In this document: positions 3,001 through 35,494 of the stretch, piece by piece
Layout of the letters: every line of letters begins with the position of its first letter
How positions within the stretch are numbered: position 1 is the first letter of the stretch
NCBI RefSeq assembly: GCF_000422945.1
Contig: NZ_AUHA01000002.1
Coordinates: forward strand, 1,364,001-1,428,000
Direction: 5' to 3'
Length of the DNA stretch: 64,000 nt
Source: Daejeonella oryzae DSM 19973
GTDB lineage: Bacteria; Bacteroidota; Bacteroidia; Sphingobacteriales; Sphingobacteriaceae
Made by a program: the position numbers and the translations under genes
The notes under the pieces: generated by a model
The model's input: the letters and a program-made list of their open reading frames with translations, nothing else
Database searches by the model: none
Told to the model about the DNA's origin: nothing

Positions 3001-6000
3001 CGGTAAAGTTGAGATATCCTTGGACGGGGGTGTTACTTATCAAGCCACTCCGTTGCTAATTTATCAGGGTGTATTAAATTCTCCATCAACAAATACTTTT
3101 ACTAAAGCTTCTATTGATTTGAATGCTTATTTAGGGCAGTCTAATTTAAAAATTCGTTTTTATTATCTGGGCACTACAGGAAGCAATTGGGCTTTAGATG
3201 ATGTGAATATAACTGGTTCATATCAAGCCATCTCTTATACCTGGCCACCAGGTTTTACAGTATCAGGTAATACAGCAACAATAACGCCTTTATCAGTGGG
3301 GACTTATACTTATAAACTAACTACGACTTACGGTGGATGTGCTTCTACAACAGCAAATTTTACTATTACTGTAAATCCTTTGCCAACAATTTCTTTGGCA
3401 ACTGCAAGTTCAGGAAATGTTATAGTATGTTATAGTACTGTCGGACAATTGGCTCCAATTATATATAGTGGTTCTAATTTAACTTCTCCAACCACATACA
3501 ACATTGTATGGTCTGCTGCAGCTATTTCTGCAGGTTTTGAAAATGTTAACGCGGCAGCATTACCTCTTGGTTCGCTTAATCTCTCTGTTCCGGCATCCGC
3601 AGCAGCGGGCACTTACACCGGAACAGTTACTGTTAACAATGGTAGCGGCTGTTCCAATGCCGGTAGTCCATTTAGTTTAACTATTAATCCGATGGCAACT
3701 TTGGGCGGAGTTTCCAGTGCTCCGGTTTGTAACGGTCCTTCCTTAACCGTTGATATTAACGGTTTACTGGCGAACAGTACTTCAACAATTATTTATACAC
3801 TTGGCAGTGCAAGTCCGGTATCTGTCTCCGGAATTGTATCTAATTCCTCCGGAATCGGAAGTTTTCCAATTGCTGTAACTGCTGCAAACAATGGGCAAAT
3901 TTTAACTATAAATTCTATAAGCAGTACTACAGCTTCTAATTCTGTAAGCTGCTTTACGCCACTTATTACCAACAATACCGTCACTTTATCAATATCCGAT
4001 GGTTATATCTGGACCGGGAACGGCGTAAACAATTTATGGACTAATGCTGCTAACTGGACGGTATGTGGTGTGCCGGGTAATGGGACAAGCGTTACAATAC
4101 CAGACGTTTCTAATAAAAATTACCCTATGCTGGATGTTGATTTTATCTCAAATAATTTCAACCTCCTGGGGAATGCAACCATAAAACTGAACGGCTTCAC
4201 GCTTACATTAGGAACTTCAACAGTATCTGTAATTAAGGAAGAGGGATCTGTAATTGGGAGTTCAACAAGCAATTTAATTCTTCAGGGAAGTTTTATAACA
4301 GATTTGAAATTTGACCAGACTGCAGACGGAATATCAAATTCATTGAAAAATATCACATTAAACAGCAATGGCCAAACGGTGAATTTGGGAAATCCACTTA
4401 AAGTTATAGGTAATCTAATTCCAACTACAGGAGTTTTATCTTCTAACGGAAATTTAACGATGGTTTCAACCGCGACCACCACCTCTAATATTGGAAGTTT
4501 TACGGCGGGTGCAGATGTGTCCGGAATTGTAAATGTCGAATCATGGTTAACCGGCGGTCCTGCAACCAATTCAGTTTCTACCAATGCAAACAGAGGAACG
4601 CGAACAATGTCATCACCTGTAAATGATGCGACAACATCGGTAGCCGTTTTTAAGCAATTGCAAGCATATATGTTTATAACAGGATCTGGTTCAGGCGGCT
4701 TTGATGTTTATCCTACCGACCCATTTGCTGAAACTCTTTTTACTTACAAAGAATCTGCTACGTATGACCAGGGAGCATTAGCTCAATATAATCTTATTCC
4801 CGATATAAATAACACACGAATCCCGGCGGGTTTGGGTTTCTTTTTGTACTACAGAGGCGATAAGTCTGACAATAATACGGCCGCAGGTTCAAAAGTTGTA
4901 TCTCCTTTTGATACTCCGGAAAGTATGTCTATTACTTACAGGGGGCAAATAAATAAAGGAAATGTAAATATGAATCTTTCTTATACTCCCAATTCGGGAT
5001 TAAGAGATCCTGAGTATAATGGATTTAACTTGGTTGGAAATCCCTATCCTGCTACAATCGACTGGACAAAAGTAACAAGGTCCAATAATTCAATAGTAGA
5101 TAATATGATAGCCATTATCAGACCCGGCGGCGGAATGATAACCTATAGCGGTGGAATTATAACTAATGGAGGGCAGGGTGCCATTCCTTCAGGAGCATCG
5201 GTTGCAGACCCTAATTATACACCCGAAATTCCGTACTATATCCAGCCCGGACAGGGATTTTATGTTAGAACAAGGGCGGCAAATTCATTTATAACATTTA
5301 CAGAAAATTCGAAAGCAATTTCTGTCGCCGGAGTTTCCACGGCTCCTGCAAGGTTATTAAGCAACGGGCTTGTCACTCAAAACTCATTACAGCCTAAAAT
5401 TTTGCGGCTTACACTAAAAGATGATTTTAATACCGACGAAACCGCAATTGTATTTAAAAAAGATTTTGATGCTTCATTTGGAGCTTTGGATGCTACTTAT
5501 CTGGCAGGAAGTTCTGTTACATTATCCAGCCAAACAAGTGATGGTAAAAATATGGCAATTAACTTTATGCCTGATATTAATGATGTATCTGAAATAGGGC
5601 TGACTGTAAATTCTGCCTCCAGCGGAAATTTGAAGTTGAATTTCTTAAATGTAATTGAATCGTTTGATCAACAGGTTTTTCTTAAAGATATATTTTTGAA
5701 TAACATCACAAATGTAAAAGAAAACCCTGTTTATGAATTCCTAATTGACCGTTCAAACTCTTTAACATTTGGTTCTGAAAGATTTAAGATAATTTTTAAA
5801 GAACCATTGGTTACCAAAGTCAAGTATTTTTCTTTTGTCGGAAAGGCTGTGAGGTTAGGCTCAGAATTGAAGTGGATTACTGATGGTGAGGTTAATAACG
5901 ATTATTTTGAAGTTGAACATTCCCGGGATGGAATATCGTATTCAACAATTGGAAAGATTAAAGGAGCAGGTAATACTTCGGTTAAAACCAATTATATTTT

Positions 6001-22574: not shown

Positions 22575-23030
22575 TTATATTTTTTTATATTCTAAAAATA
22601 TTTCGTTCGGTTTACTGTCTGATAAATTTTCCTGAATAACAGAAATTACCTCGTAAAAAGTTTTTACTTGTTCCTTGCTTAGCGTCTTCATCGACTTCTG
22701 ATTTAAATCAGAAATTACTTTGCGGATAACTGGTATATCTGTACGGGCTTTTTCGGTAAGTTTTATCAATTGTTCCCTTCGGTCATTCGGATTTTTTTCC
22801 CTGATTACATATCCCTTGCCACATAAATAATCAAGGATGGTAACCATATAAGATTTATCAACCTGTAATAATTCACTTAATGCTTTTTGAGTAAGAGATT
22901 CTTTATGATCATCTATGAGCACCAATATATACTGATATTTATCTATAGATAAATGTGAAGCTTCTTTTGAAAATAAGCTTAAGTATTTTTTGCTGACCGC
23001 AATTAATGAATGTGTTAAAGGTTCTTCCAT
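22575..23030 (-). CDS. MarR-family transcriptional repressor of the RND operon
   Basis: The 151-residue winged-helix protein has a MarR core: the recognition region LSELLQVDKSYMVTILDYL and the wing with DRREQLIKLT. I use the ATG at 23030; the longer form would begin at a TTG at 23045 that lies inside a probable promoter box. It is the first gene of the efflux operon (8-base gap to the adaptor). By family, it should bind an inverted repeat as a dimer and release it when an aromatic or drug-like ligand binds. A matching inverted repeat lies just upstream (23068-23086), consistent with autorepression. Confidence 0.9.
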   Translation of the reverse strand: MEEPLTHSLIAVSKKYLSLFSKEASHLSIDKYQYILVLIDDHKESLTQKALSELLQVDKSYMVTILDYLCGKGYVIREKNPNDRREQLIKLTEKARTDIPVIRKVISDLNQKSMKTLSKEQVKTFYEVISVIQENLSDSKPNEIFLEYKKI

Positions 23031-23042
23031 AAACTGTAAATG

Positions 23043-23050
23043 CAAAGCTA
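23043..23050 (-). promoter_or_regulatory. Probable -7 promoter box of the marR-efflux operon
   Basis: On the minus strand this reads TAGCTTTG, an exact match to the Bacteroidota -7 consensus TAnnTTTG, and ends 12 bases before the ATG at 23030. A TTG at the expected -33 distance was not found, so only the -7 element is supported. Confidence 0.5.
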
Positions 23051-29418: not shown

Positions 29419-29430
29419 TATGCTTGCATA
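29419..29430. promoter_or_regulatory. Operator copy 1, TATGC-NN-GCATA palindrome
   Basis: This 12-base site has perfect 5-base arms (TATGC, GCATA) around TT. It covers the -33 TTG of the promoter of the MarR-fad operon. A second copy with GT in the centre lies 37 bases downstream (centre to centre). Confidence 0.7.
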
Positions 29431-29454
29431 CTAAATTTCAATTCAATAGATTTG
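29424..29454 (+). promoter_or_regulatory. Consensus Bacteroidota promoter of the MarR-fad operon
   Basis: TTG at 29424-29426 and TAGATTTG at 29447-29454 are 20 bases apart, a full match to the primary-sigma consensus TTG-N19-21-TAnnTTTG. The ATG of the MarR gene is 22 bases beyond the -7 box. Confidence 0.8.
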
Positions 29455-29455
29455 T

Positions 29456-29467
29456 TATGCGTGCATA
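29456..29467. promoter_or_regulatory. Operator copy 2, TATGC-NN-GCATA palindrome
   Basis: The arms TATGC and GCATA are perfect around a GT centre. The site starts one base after the -7 box and covers the expected transcription start, a position where a bound MarR dimer would repress. Confidence 0.7.
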
Positions 29468-29476
29468 GTATATTAC

Positions 29477-29908
29477 ATGAAGCCTGAAGAAACCGTAGAC
29501 TACTTCTTAAAAATTGTTTGGCAAAGTGTTGCCAATAAATATAACCAGATCGCTTCTGAATATGGAATAACTCAGGCATTGGGTTATATGCTGATTAATA
29601 TTCATGAGGAGGGTACGGCAGTTTCGCAAATTGCCGCTTTGTCGGGTGTAAAGTCAACCAGCCTTTCCCGTATGTTAAAAAATATGGAGGAATTGGGTTT
29701 GATTTACCGGGAGGCTGATCCTTTGGATAAGCGTTCTGTTAAAATATTTTTAACAGATTTTGGCAAAGAAAAAAGACAGGTGGCAAAAGATGTGGTGCGC
29801 CGTTTTAATGAATATCTGAACAGTCACGTAACTGAAACCGAAAGGCTTAATTTAACAGAAAGTCTTAAAAAGATAAACCAACTAACATTAAACTATAAAC
29901 CTGAATAG
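29477..29908 (+). CDS. MarR-family regulator of fatty-acid degradation operon
   Basis: The 143-residue winged-helix protein has the MarR recognition region SQIAALSGVKSTSLSRMLKNMEELGLI and the wing DPLDKRSVKIFLT. Its stop is immediately followed by the ATG of the FadN-like gene (29908/29909), so it leads the beta-oxidation operon. The two TATGC-NN-GCATA palindromes on its own promoter are the obvious binding sites. By analogy with other acyl-CoA-responsive repressors, its ligand is inferred to be an acyl-CoA or fatty acid; nothing in the sequence proves this. Confidence 0.9.
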   Translation: MKPEETVDYFLKIVWQSVANKYNQIASEYGITQALGYMLINIHEEGTAVSQIAALSGVKSTSLSRMLKNMEELGLIYREADPLDKRSVKIFLTDFGKEKRQVAKDVVRRFNEYLNSHVTETERLNLTESLKKINQLTLNYKPE

Positions 29909-32314
29909 ATGAAACGAATAGTTAGAAAAGTAGCAGTACTGGGTTCTGGAATAATGGGTTCCCGCATTGCCTGCCACTTTGCCAATATTGGACTTGAAGT
30001 ATTGTTGCTGGATATTGTACCCAGAGAATTGAGTGCTGAAGAGCAGGCTAAAGGTTTATCGCTGGAAAACAAAAATGTACGTAACCGCATCGTAAATACC
30101 GCATTGGAAACAGCCGTTAAAAGCAATCCATCTCCCGTTTATACAAAGAAGGTTATCAATAAAATCACGACAGGAAATTTTGAAGACAATATGAAAGATA
30201 TTGCTTCCTGCGACTGGACCATTGAAGTGGTTGTAGAAAATCTGGATATTAAGAAAAAGGTATATGATGAGGTCGAAAAATACCGCAGGCCCGGTACGCT
30301 GATCACTTCAAATACGTCGGGTATTCCTATCCATTTAATGGCAGAAGGAAGAACTGCAGATTTTCAATCTCATTTCTGCGGAACTCATTTTTTTAACCCG
30401 CCGAGGTATTTGCGTCTTTTAGAAATTATTCCAACTCCTCAGACCAATGCTGAAGTGATTGACTTTCTGATGCATTACGGAGATAAATTTCTGGGTAAAA
30501 CAACTGTATTATGTAAAGATACGCCGGCATTTATTGCTAACAGGGTGGGAGTGTATTCTATTATGGCACTTTTGCACCTGGTCGAAAAAATGGATCTCAC
30601 AGTAGAAGAGGTAGATAAATATACTGGTCCGGCATTGGGTCGGCCAAAATCTGCAACATTCAGAACTACCGATGTGGTAGGCTTGGATACCATGATTAAT
30701 GTGGCCAACGGTTTATCGCAGAACCTTCCGGATGATAAGGCGCATGACCTTTTCCAGCTGCCAGGTTATGTAAAAAAGATGCAGGAGAATAAATGGCTCG
30801 GCGATAAAACCCGTCAGGGATTTTATAAAAAAGTAAAGGGCGAAGATGGGAAAAGTGAAATATTATCCCTTGATTTAAAAACCTTTGAATACAAACCACA
30901 GCAGAAAATAAAATCTGCTACGCTGGAGGCAACCAAAGCCGTAGAAAATCTTCAGGAACGTATGAAGGTTTTTTCCAAAGGAACCGATAAAGCCGGAGAA
31001 TTTTTCCGGACCTCATTTTTTGGTTTGTTCGAATATGTTTCCGACCGGATTCCAGAAATTTCTGATGAACTGTACCGGATTGATGATGCCATGCGTGCCG
31101 GCTTCGGCTGGGAACTTGGCCCTTTTGAGGTTTGGGATGCTTTAGGTATTCAGGAAGCTGTGGATGGAATGAAAAAGTACGGCAACGAAGCTGCTCAGTG
31201 GGTTCATGAAATGCTGGAAGCCGGTCATTCGTCATTTTATAAAGTAGAAAATGGGATTAAAAAATATTATGATATCCCAACAAAAACATACAAGGCTGTT
31301 CCCGGAGCGGATGCATTTATCATCCTGGATAATCTCCGTGATAACAAAACCGTCTGGAAAAACTCCGGTACAACCATTACTGATCTGGGCGACGGAATAC
31401 TGAATCTGGAATTTCACACTAAAATGAATACAATCGGTGGCGAGGTTATCCAGGGAATAAATAAAGCTATTGATCTGGCTGAGAAAGATTACCGCGGATT
31501 GGTTATTGGTAATGACGGGGCAAATTTTTCTGCCGGTGCCAATATCGGGATGATCTTTATGGCTGCTGTTGAACAGGATTGGGATGAGATAAATATCGCG
31601 ATTAAAATGTTCCAGAATACCATGATGCGTGTACGTTATTCATCTATTCCGGTAGTTGCTGCGGCGCATAATTTAACCCTTGGCGGAGGATGCGAACTTT
31701 GTCTGCATGCAGATTTTGTTCAAACCAATGCTGAAACCTATATGGGACTGGTAGAATTTGGAGTTGGTTTGATTCCGGGCGGAGGTGGCTCCAAAGAATT
31801 TGCTTTGCGTGTCTCTGATGATTTCCGTGAGGGACAGATTGAGCAGAATGCCCTTAAAGACCGCTTTCTGACTATCGCAATGGCCAAAGTTTCTACATCC
31901 GGAGAGGAAGCGTACGATCTTGGATATTTACAAAAAGGTAAATACGCTATCACCATGAACCGAAGCCGTTTAATTTCTGATGCAAAAGAAAAAGCACTAG
32001 AGCTGGCTGATGCCGGATATGTAACTCCTGTTCAGCGAAAAGATATCCGGGTATTGGGTAAACATGGGATGGGTATTGTTTATGCCGGCGCAAATTCTAT
32101 GTATGCAGGCAATTACATTTCGGAGCATGATAAAAAGATTTCTGAAAAATTAGGCTACGTAATGTGCGGTGGAGATTTGTCTGCTCCTGCCTTGGTAACT
32201 GAGCAATATTTACTGGATTTAGAGCGGGAAGTTTTTCTATCGCTTTGCGGAGAAAAGAAGACTTTAGAGCGTATTCAATCAATTTTGACTAAGGGTAAAC
32301 CTTTGAGAAATTAG
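29909..32314 (+). CDS. fadN: 3-hydroxyacyl-CoA dehydrogenase / enoyl-CoA hydratase fusion (FadN-like)
   Basis: This 801-residue enzyme carries out two steps of beta-oxidation: hydration of enoyl-CoA and NAD-dependent oxidation of 3-hydroxyacyl-CoA. The NAD-binding motif VAVLGSGIMGSRIA opens the dehydrogenase half, with THFFNPP and a duplicated C-terminal dehydrogenase domain to about residue 440. The hydratase/crotonase half follows, with the oxyanion-hole regions FSAGANI and NLTLGGGCE. This order (dehydrogenase first) is that of Bacillus FadN and the reverse of E. coli FadB. It lies between its MarR regulator and the thiolase gene. Confidence 0.93.
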   Translation: MKRIVRKVAVLGSGIMGSRIACHFANIGLEVLLLDIVPRELSAEEQAKGLSLENKNVRNRIVNTALETAVKSNPSPVYTKKVINKITTGNFEDNMKDIASCDWTIEVVVENLDIKKKVYDEVEKYRRPGTLITSNTSGIPIHLMAEGRTADFQSHFCGTHFFNPPRYLRLLEIIPTPQTNAEVIDFLMHYGDKFLGKTTVLCKDTPAFIANRVGVYSIMALLHLVEKMDLTVEEVDKYTGPALGRPKSATFRTTDVVGLDTMINVANGLSQNLPDDKAHDLFQLPGYVKKMQENKWLGDKTRQGFYKKVKGEDGKSEILSLDLKTFEYKPQQKIKSATLEATKAVENLQERMKVFSKGTDKAGEFFRTSFFGLFEYVSDRIPEISDELYRIDDAMRAGFGWELGPFEVWDALGIQEAVDGMKKYGNEAAQWVHEMLEAGHSSFYKVENGIKKYYDIPTKTYKAVPGADAFIILDNLRDNKTVWKNSGTTITDLGDGILNLEFHTKMNTIGGEVIQGINKAIDLAEKDYRGLVIGNDGANFSAGANIGMIFMAAVEQDWDEINIAIKMFQNTMMRVRYSSIPVVAAAHNLTLGGGCELCLHADFVQTNAETYMGLVEFGVGLIPGGGGSKEFALRVSDDFREGQIEQNALKDRFLTIAMAKVSTSGEEAYDLGYLQKGKYAITMNRSRLISDAKEKALELADAGYVTPVQRKDIRVLGKHGMGIVYAGANSMYAGNYISEHDKKISEKLGYVMCGGDLSAPALVTEQYLLDLEREVFLSLCGEKKTLERIQSILTKGKPLRN

Positions 32315-32354: not shown

Positions 32355-33533
32355 ATGGAAGAAGCATATATCATAGCAGCATATAGAACAGCAGTTGGCA
32401 AGGCCCCGCGGGGAGTATTCCGTTTTACACGTGCCGATGATCTGGCTGCAGAAGTTGTAAAACATTTAGTAGCATCAGTGCCGAATCTGGATAAAGAGCA
32501 AATTGACGACGTGATTGTTGGTAATGCAACTCCAGAAGGTGAGCAGGGTTTAAATGTAGCCCGGATGATTTCTTTAATGGGTTTAAATACCGAAAAAGTT
32601 CCCGGTGTAACGGTTAACCGGTACTGTGCTTCCGGACTGGAAACTATTGCTATTGCAACAGCTAAAATTCGGTCGGGGATGGCAGATTGCATTATTGCCG
32701 GCGGAGTAGAAGTGATGTCTGGAATGCCGTTTGGAGGATGGAAACTGGTGCCAAATCCGGATGTAGCTAAAAATCACCCTGAATGGTATTGGGGTATGGG
32801 CTTAACCGCCGAAGCCGTCGCGAAAGAGTATTCTGTTAGTCGCGAAGATCAGGATGAGTTTTCATTTAACTCTCATCAAAAAGCGGTTGAAGCTATTAAA
32901 AATGGACATTTAAAAGACGGAATTATTCCTATAACTATAAAGGAAAATTATCTCGACGAAAACCTGAAGAAAAAATCAAAAGAATTTTTGGTTGATACGG
33001 ATGAAGGACCGAGATCTGATACCACAATTGAAAAGCTTTCTAAACTAAAACCAGTGTTTGCTGCCAATGGCGTAGTTACTGCCGGTAATTCATCCCAAAC
33101 TTCTGATGGAGCAGCATTTGTTTTGATCGTTTCAGAATCAATGCTGAAGCAATTAAACGTTCAGCCGATTGCCCGCCTGGTAAGTTACGGTGTTGCCGGA
33201 GTTCCGCCACGAATTATGGGTATTGGTCCGATTGAGGCAATTCCTCTGGCTTTGAAAAAGGCCGGAATGAAACAGGAAGATTTGGATTTGATTGAATTGA
33301 ACGAAGCTTTCGCTTCTCAGTCACTTGCTATCATCCGCACATTGGGGCTGGATAAGGATAAAGTAAATGTGAACGGTGGAGCAATAGCTCTGGGTCATCC
33401 TCTGGGATGTACAGGTGCTAAATTGTCTGTACAGATTTTTAATGAATTAAAAAGAAGAGAAAAGAAATACGGAATGGTTACTATGTGTGTTGGCAGCGGC
33501 CAGGGCGCAGCAGGAATTTTTGAAATGATGTGA
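32355..33533 (+). CDS. fadA: Acetyl-CoA acyltransferase (3-ketoacyl-CoA thiolase)
   Basis: The 392-residue thiolase has the acylated nucleophile C91 in VNRYCASGLE, the catalytic histidine in ALGHPLGCTGA, and the second active-site cysteine in MCVGSGQGAAG. It cleaves 3-ketoacyl-CoA with CoA, releasing acetyl-CoA, the last step of beta-oxidation. It begins 40 bases after the FadN-like gene and is followed by the acyl-CoA dehydrogenase. A biosynthetic acetoacetyl-CoA role is less likely given these neighbours. Confidence 0.93.
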   Translation: MEEAYIIAAYRTAVGKAPRGVFRFTRADDLAAEVVKHLVASVPNLDKEQIDDVIVGNATPEGEQGLNVARMISLMGLNTEKVPGVTVNRYCASGLETIAIATAKIRSGMADCIIAGGVEVMSGMPFGGWKLVPNPDVAKNHPEWYWGMGLTAEAVAKEYSVSREDQDEFSFNSHQKAVEAIKNGHLKDGIIPITIKENYLDENLKKKSKEFLVDTDEGPRSDTTIEKLSKLKPVFAANGVVTAGNSSQTSDGAAFVLIVSESMLKQLNVQPIARLVSYGVAGVPPRIMGIGPIEAIPLALKKAGMKQEDLDLIELNEAFASQSLAIIRTLGLDKDKVNVNGGAIALGHPLGCTGAKLSVQIFNELKRREKKYGMVTMCVGSGQGAAGIFEMM

Positions 33534-33700: not shown

Positions 33701-35494
33701 ATGGAAACCACAGAAAAAAACAAATCAATAAAAGGCGGAGAATTTATTATTCGCGAAACTTCATGTGACGATATTTTTATTCCGGAGGAATTTGATGAGG
33801 AACAGCTGATGATCAAGAAAACCTGTGAAGATTTTCTTGAAAGTGAAGTTTATCCAAACCTGGAGCGGATTGATAATCAGGAAGAAGGTTTGATGCCATC
33901 CTTGATGGATAAAGCCGGAGAGCTGGGTTTGCTGGCAGTTTCAATTCCGGAAGAGTATGGCGGCTTCGGCAAAAATTTTAATACTTCAATGCTTGTTGCT
34001 GATACGGTTGGCCCGGGCTGTTCTTTCGCGGTAGCACTTTCAGCTCATACCGGTATTGGAACCCTCCCGATTCTTTACTATGGAGATAAGCAACAAAAAG
34101 ATAAATACATTCCTAAACTGGCTACCGGCGAATGGAAAGCAGCCTATTGTTTAACAGAACCAAATTCAGGTTCTGACGCAAATTCTGCTCGTACAAAAGC
34201 AAAACTGAATGCAGAGGGTACACATTACCATATTAACGGACAAAAAATGTGGATTACCAATGGTGGATTTGCAGATGTGTTTATCGTTTTTGCCAAAATT
34301 GATGATGATAAAAATCTTTCAGCTTTTATTGTTGAAAAGGATTTTGGAGGAATTTCCATGAATCCTGAGGAGCATAAAATGGGCATCAAGGGTTCTTCTA
34401 CACGTCAGGTATTTTTTAACGATTGCCCGGTTCCTGTAGAAAATCTTTTATCAGAAAGAGAGAATGGTTTTAAGATCGCAGTGAATATTCTCAATATCGG
34501 CCGTATTAAGCTGGGAGTTGCTGCTATCGGATCTTCCCGTCGGGTTTTAAATCAGGCAATTAATTATTCGAACGAGCGAATTCAGTTTAACCTGCCGATT
34601 TCAAAATTCGGAGCTATCCGCTATAAGCTTGCTGAAATGGCGACCCGTAATTTTGCCATTGAAAGTGCGGCTTACAGAGCTGGTCAAAATATTGACGATG
34701 CCTACGATGCGTTGCTTGCTGAAGGCATGGATCCGGCGAAAGCCAAATTAAAATCCACAGAAATGTTTGCCGTAGAATGTGCTATTTTGAAAGTGTGGGG
34801 TTCTGAAATGCTGGATTACATTGTGGATGAAGGAGTGCAGGTTTATGGAGGAATGGGATATTCGGCCGAAGCGCCCATGGATCGTGCTTATCGCGATAGC
34901 CGGATCAACAGAATATTTGAAGGGACCAATGAAATTAACCGGATGCTCATTGTAGATATGCTGCTGAAGCGTGCTATGAAAGGCGAGCTGGATCTGATGA
35001 CACCGGCTCAAGCCGTAGCCGGAGAATTAATGTCGATTCCAGACTTTGGTGAAGAGGATGATACGCTATTTGCGGCAGAGAAAAAGATTTTGGTAAATCT
35101 TAAAAAAGCCGGACTTATGGTTGCCGGTTCAGCGGTGCAAAAATTAATGATGACCCTGGGTAAAGAGCAGGAAATATTAATGAACATTGCCGATATTCTC
35201 GGATATGTTTATGTTGCTGAATCTACTATCCTACGGGTTGAAAAACTGGTTAAATTACGTGGAGAAGAAGCGTGTAAAGGACAACTGGATATGATGCGTA
35301 TCTATTTGCAGGAAACTGTGGATAAAGTTGCCCTTGCCGGAAAAGAAGCTCTTTATTCTTTTGCCGAAGGCGATGAGTTGAAAATGATGCTTGTTGGATT
35401 ACGTCGTTTTACAAAGGCCGAGCCTTTTAATATTAAAGAAACCCGCCAGCGTGTGGCACGCCAATTAATCGAAGCCAATAAATATTGTTTTTAG
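33701..35494 (+). CDS. Acyl-CoA dehydrogenase (long-chain, FadE-like)
   Basis: This 597-residue FAD enzyme catalyses the first oxidation of acyl-CoA. The N- and middle-domain motifs include AYCLTEPNSGSDA and WITNGGFAD. The C-terminal helical domain has VYGGMGYSAEAPMDRAYRDSR and FEGTNEINRM, which holds the catalytic glutamate region. The roughly 200-residue C-terminal extension beyond a standard 380-residue dehydrogenase resembles VLCAD-type enzymes, which suggests long-chain substrates. It follows the thiolase by 167 bases and is last in the operon before a strong terminator. Electrons would pass to ETF, which is not encoded in this window. Confidence 0.93.
   Translation: METTEKNKSIKGGEFIIRETSCDDIFIPEEFDEEQLMIKKTCEDFLESEVYPNLERIDNQEEGLMPSLMDKAGELGLLAVSIPEEYGGFGKNFNTSMLVADTVGPGCSFAVALSAHTGIGTLPILYYGDKQQKDKYIPKLATGEWKAAYCLTEPNSGSDANSARTKAKLNAEGTHYHINGQKMWITNGGFADVFIVFAKIDDDKNLSAFIVEKDFGGISMNPEEHKMGIKGSSTRQVFFNDCPVPVENLLSERENGFKIAVNILNIGRIKLGVAAIGSSRRVLNQAINYSNERIQFNLPISKFGAIRYKLAEMATRNFAIESAAYRAGQNIDDAYDALLAEGMDPAKAKLKSTEMFAVECAILKVWGSEMLDYIVDEGVQVYGGMGYSAEAPMDRAYRDSRINRIFEGTNEINRMLIVDMLLKRAMKGELDLMTPAQAVAGELMSIPDFGEEDDTLFAAEKKILVNLKKAGLMVAGSAVQKLMMTLGKEQEILMNIADILGYVYVAESTILRVEKLVKLRGEEACKGQLDMMRIYLQETVDKVALAGKEALYSFAEGDELKMMLVGLRRFTKAEPFNIKETRQRVARQLIEANKYCF

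Follow-up and report, generated by a model that had tools for sequence, protein, structure and literature searches.

The window, i.e., the whole 64,000-nucleotide stretch of Daejeonella oryzae DSM 19973 DNA analysed here, contains a plus-strand operon headed by a gene for a MarR-family regulator of 143 aa (29477-29908; Pfam MarR_2, 1.1e-10, above cut-off). It is followed by genes for a FadN/FadB-type 3-hydroxyacyl-CoA dehydrogenase/enoyl-CoA hydratase of 801 aa (29909-32314; Pfam 3HCDH_N, 3HCDH, and ECH), a FadA-type thiolase of 392 aa (32355-33533; Pfam Thiolase_N/C, NCBIfam TIGR01930 above cut-off), and a FadE-type acyl-CoA dehydrogenase of 597 aa (33701-35494; NCBIfam NF058590, the Bacillus-type FadE, 815 bits against a cut-off of 600). 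The best NCBIfam model for the FadN/FadB-type protein was Staph_FadB, with 580 bits and under the cut-off of that model. These assignments support the beta-oxidation operon that an earlier note on this DNA had placed 3' of the promoter.

The winged-helix MarR domain of the regulator scored over the gathering thresholds of both Pfam MarR_2 and Pfam MarR, and an AlphaFold2 model of the protein (pLDDT 92.5) had DNA-bound MepR (4lln) among its closest solved folds, with a TM-score of 0.81 at 24% identity. None of the named NCBIfam MarR equivalogs passed its cut-off: the best reached 47 bits against 240, and BilQ 46 against 125. The closest named loci belong to Daejeonella lutea and related metagenome-assembled genomes, with about 84% MarR identity. 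The window holds a second MarR gene on the minus strand (22575-23045), which heads an apparent RND-type efflux operon; no TATGCNNGCATA was found near it with up to two mismatches.

Upstream of marR lies a promoter of the form TTG-N20-TAGATTTG, with the -33 element TTG at 29424-29426 and the -7 element at 29447-29454, both on the plus strand. It conforms to the layout of the primary sigma factor of Bacteroidota, TTG-N19-21-TAnnTTTG, its -7 element fits the sigma-A consensus TAnnTTTG (PMC9723704), and TTG-N19/20-TAnnTTTG is conserved in the orthologues. Two exact TATGC-NN-GCATA palindromes, whose starts are 37 bp apart, flank this promoter as putative operators without strand assignment: TATGCTTGCATA at 29419-29430 (site 1), which contains the TTG of the -33 element, and TATGCGTGCATA at 29456-29467 (site 2), which begins two bases past the end of the -7 box. 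If the -7 box lies at -12 to -5, as in a flavobacterial map of transcription start sites (PMC9723704), +1 would be at about 29459; site 1 would then span about -40 to -29, whereas site 2, covering the inferred start point, would span about -3 to +9. The earlier note had described both palindromes and this promoter, and each was recovered exactly as described. In one Daejeonella subgroup, a further conserved block, AAAGCTAAGCTTAA, lies about 110 bases upstream of marR, 5' of the promoter.

The window contains no exact match besides these two palindromes, and dinucleotide shuffles of it gave a mean of 0.09 exact matches and never two. Short 5-2-5 repeats do arise randomly once mismatches are allowed, as the window contained 25 with up to two mismatches where 30 were expected. 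That the palindromes are due to chance, or reflect only DNA or RNA structure, is nevertheless a negligible prospect given the excess of exact matches over shuffles and the fixed promoter position, which is conserved over the family and the class. Genome-wide sites were located by pattern searches and by retrieving the regions around matches. The exact motif occurs at seven places in the whole window genome, and only the two at marR have a promoter-like position; four lie inside coding sequence, and one is intergenic but unlike an operator.

MarR-like genes were detected in 46 of 60 related genomes; fewer of them had a clear orthologue (E below 1e-20). The motif TTTGNTATGCNNGCATA was present in 20/20 genomes of the genus, where the reversed-pattern control gave 0, and in oriented upstream regions site 2 directly followed TAnnTTTG in all members of the genus and most members of the family. 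At the 78 named loci, 45 carried the site, always right after the -7 box; 60 permuted half-sites each matched at most one of these loci, and the site was absent from 1300 other segments of 250 nt. Beyond the family, we found 11 MarR orthologues with 34-47% identity, all followed by FadB, and nine of these marR-fadB pairs were preceded by a perfect site. The upstream region of one remaining locus (L120) ends at the contig end, and the other (L127) matches 8 of 10 positions. In these distant relatives the position of the site within the promoter varies.

The site occurred in all 44 named loci with fadB adjoining marR vs. 1/34 without, although this contrast does not amount to many independent tests, because loss of the site together with loss of the fad genes maps to a single event on the MarR tree. 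A palindrome in the regulator's own promoter is a trait of the MarR family, and it is present at this locus. Together, the conservation in the genus, at the named marR-fadB loci, and at class level supports the reading of the motif as a putative MarR operator. The search of orthologous promoters that the earlier note had proposed thus left its reading standing, as did the geometry that it had taken to indicate autorepression, with site 1 over the -33 TTG and site 2 over the inferred start.

The 34 of 78 loci where marR has no fadB downstream are mostly from Mucilaginibacter. The loci inspected share the same neighbourhood (gamma-glutamyltranspeptidase, marR, two FKBP-type genes, photolyase, and epimerase), which indicates that the fad genes most likely dropped out. 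Among 11 such genomes tested, fadN was absent in eight and located elsewhere in three. These three Mucilaginibacter genomes (L267-L269) have no site before the relocated fadN, which suggests that the site tracks linkage to marR and not fadN itself. By eye, fadN-fadA in two of them (L267 and L268) adjoins apparent genes for ETF, a thioesterase, and an acyl-CoA-binding protein. The orphan marR of Mucilaginibacter is apparently leaderless, with a start codon derived from the decayed left operator half TTATGCGAAGCAGTG (L200-L216 and others, around position 4001).

The earlier note had also predicted tight, possibly looped or cooperative binding from the twin arrangement. An exact second site accompanied the core site in 10 of 46 promoters, and at least 8 of 10 positions matched in 19; the offset was only ever 36 or 37 bp. 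The twin sites and promoter layout are also found before marR-fadB in one genome from a different family. This recurrence is what a looped or cooperative repression complex would have in its favour. However, the spacing is locked to that of the promoter, since one copy overlaps the -33 box and its partner adjoins the -7 box, with an N19 or N20 spacer between the two boxes. The helical phasing of looped or cooperative repression was not found either: 36-37 bp corresponds to about 3.5 turns, which would place two dimers on opposite faces of the DNA and argues against looping or simple cooperativity. Moreover, 36 of the 46 promoters are without an exact second site, and the twin trait switched state no fewer than seven times along the MarR tree, many forks of which are weak. 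We therefore consider looped or cooperative repression quite unlikely, and this part of the earlier prediction was not supported. The twin is a recurrent yet optional design that is not essential: site 2 is the conserved core, and site 1 an auxiliary site kept in only part of the relatives. Exact twin sites were also seen in Mucilaginibacter rivuli (L260, 4400-4448), where marR-fadN is still present.

The motif also precedes genes away from marR. In most genomes of the genus, a conserved site lies between a gene of the penicillin-amidase family and a gene for a TonB-dependent receptor; in the window genome this site has one mismatch. When all one-mismatch sites of the window genome were examined one by one, 45 were coding, and the others, except for that TonB-receptor site, had no convincing lipid-gene target. 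Another conserved site is found some 64 bases upstream of a gene for a membrane Fe-S protein, which is followed by a CCG-domain protein; this site is missing in the window genome and in genome G013. The Fe-S and CCG proteins resemble ETF:quinone oxidoreductases of the EMO type (PMC8805022), and going by their domains our guess is that they are a candidate ETF:menaquinone oxidoreductase of Bacteroidota. In Pedobacter, the motif precedes genes for TonB receptors and a FadL-family porin.

Recurrent targets in Mucilaginibacter include acyl-CoA dehydrogenases, thiolase, acyl-CoA carboxylase, IcmF, and 3-oxoacid CoA-transferase, as well as fumarylacetoacetase-like and homogentisate-dioxygenase-like genes (tyrosine catabolism), ilvD, an M1 peptidase, and ccmC. 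Intergenic sites made up 10/12 (G064), 8/14 (G066), 5/10 (G075), and 6/11 (G073) in the genomes whose sites were taken completely or almost completely; the Mucilaginibacter share is partly biased, as three genomes were sampled preferentially at sites with A/T-rich centres. Upstream of ilvD, the motif is located at a distance of about 240 bases in Mucilaginibacter and 450 bases in Daejeonella, within a conserved leader that may hold an attenuator or terminator. The functional coherence of genes such as those for acyl-CoA dehydrogenases, thiolase, and carboxylase bears out the use of the motif for finding the regulon, as the earlier note had suggested.

Many of these recurring matches fall on the -33 region or on the start, which suits repression. 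Two sites in Daejeonella are upstream of the -33 element, that of the TonB receptor at about -52 to -60 and that of the Fe-S gene at about -43, and both are associated with weaker -7 boxes. An activator would also fit there, so that the MarR protein could have a dual role in which it represses its own operon and activates the receptor and Fe-S oxidoreductase genes. Against this, in 8/8 fad-less Mucilaginibacter genomes tested this Fe-S gene has its site 0-8 bases before the ATG, a position for a repressor. We regard the dual role as unlikely. These upstream positions, the missing Fe-S site in the window genome, and the mismatch at its TonB-receptor site count against the repressor reading given below.

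It is also conceivable that the motif is bound by another transcription factor, with marR merely as its neighbour, since acyl-CoA genes at a distance from marR are widely preceded by the motif. However, throughout the class the site is deeply coupled to the promoter of marR-fadB, fadN has no site where it no longer adjoins marR, and a symmetric 12-bp site together with the predicted fold suits a MarR dimer. A different factor is thus very unlikely.

Taken together, the best reading, which we hold to be probable, is that of an acyl-CoA-relieved MarR autorepressor of marR-fadN-fadA-fadE, with the same site placing other acyl-CoA genes under its control. On sequence grounds, we infer that this MarR binds the sites and that it represses rather than activates. 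A MarR dimer would bind TATGCNNGCATA and repress its own promoter, and hence the entire marR-fadN-fadA-fadE transcript. The dimer on site 2 would cover the start point and, in the window genome, a second dimer on site 1 would cover the -33 element. As one dimer at either place would suffice to block RNA polymerase, what the second site contributes is most likely greater occupancy and not a loop. The operon would most likely be induced when a fatty acyl-CoA, or some other acyl-CoA intermediate, lowers DNA binding; the precedents of CouR and FerC, and the substrates that the targets have in common, make an acyl-CoA the likely releasing ligand. Other acyl-CoA catabolic genes would come under the same regulator through the same site, in line with marR being a member of an acyl-CoA catabolic operon and with the motif preceding other acyl-CoA genes, both seen in the DNA itself.

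We found no earlier description of this regulator or motif in the open-access literature. For Proteobacteria, the transcriptional regulation of fatty-acid and amino-acid acyl-CoA breakdown has been well mapped, whereas we found no description of it in the open-access literature for this group of Bacteroidota. Since it is found again upstream of related genes and in distantly related bacteria, the motif marks a small control network for the burning of acyl-CoA compounds in the group, one that is apparently undescribed. We lean slightly towards the broader view that one MarR protein, whose 12-bp operator has been retained in many families of the class, is a main switch for the catabolism of acyl-CoA compounds in this part of Bacteroidota, with a regulon that moves between fatty-acid oxidation (Daejeonella and Pedobacter) and the catabolism of branched-chain and aromatic amino acids (Mucilaginibacter, in which the regulator persisted after its own fad operon was lost). 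This suggests a regulon being rewired after loss of its founding operon. The 12-bp motif, fixed within a Bacteroidota promoter, supplies a regulator, an operator, and a set of targets that can be tested directly.

The operon is of the same type as fadNAE of Bacillus subtilis, with the gene order fadN-fadA-fadE and a FadE that matches the Bacillus-type model. In the Daejeonella operon a MarR gene comes first; the FadR of Bacillus is a TetR-family protein. In Proteobacteria, degradation of fatty acids and branched-chain amino acids is controlled by FadR (GntR), PsrA and FadP (TetR), LiuR (MerR), and LiuQ (TetR), which share the kind of target genes but belong to protein families other than MarR, according to the portion of PMC5343134 drawn on here. 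The MarR member given in that portion is HmgS, for tyrosine degradation, and the regulators described there include no MarR protein for fatty-acid degradation.

Within the MarR family, MepR is close in fold to the Daejeonella model but regulates multidrug efflux. FabT senses an acyl chain, as acyl-ACP (PMC5487221); however, it governs fatty-acid synthesis and not degradation, and acyl-ACP strengthens its binding. CouR is a repressor relieved by a CoA thioester, with an inverted repeat over its promoters (PMC4737184), and FerC is likewise a MarR repressor relieved by a CoA thioester (PMC5487221). CouR, FerC, and HcaR serve another pathway, hydroxycinnamate catabolism, and their similarity to the Daejeonella protein, whose ligand is putative, is at the family level only. 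Like it, all three nevertheless combine a MarR-family regulator with a catabolic operon.
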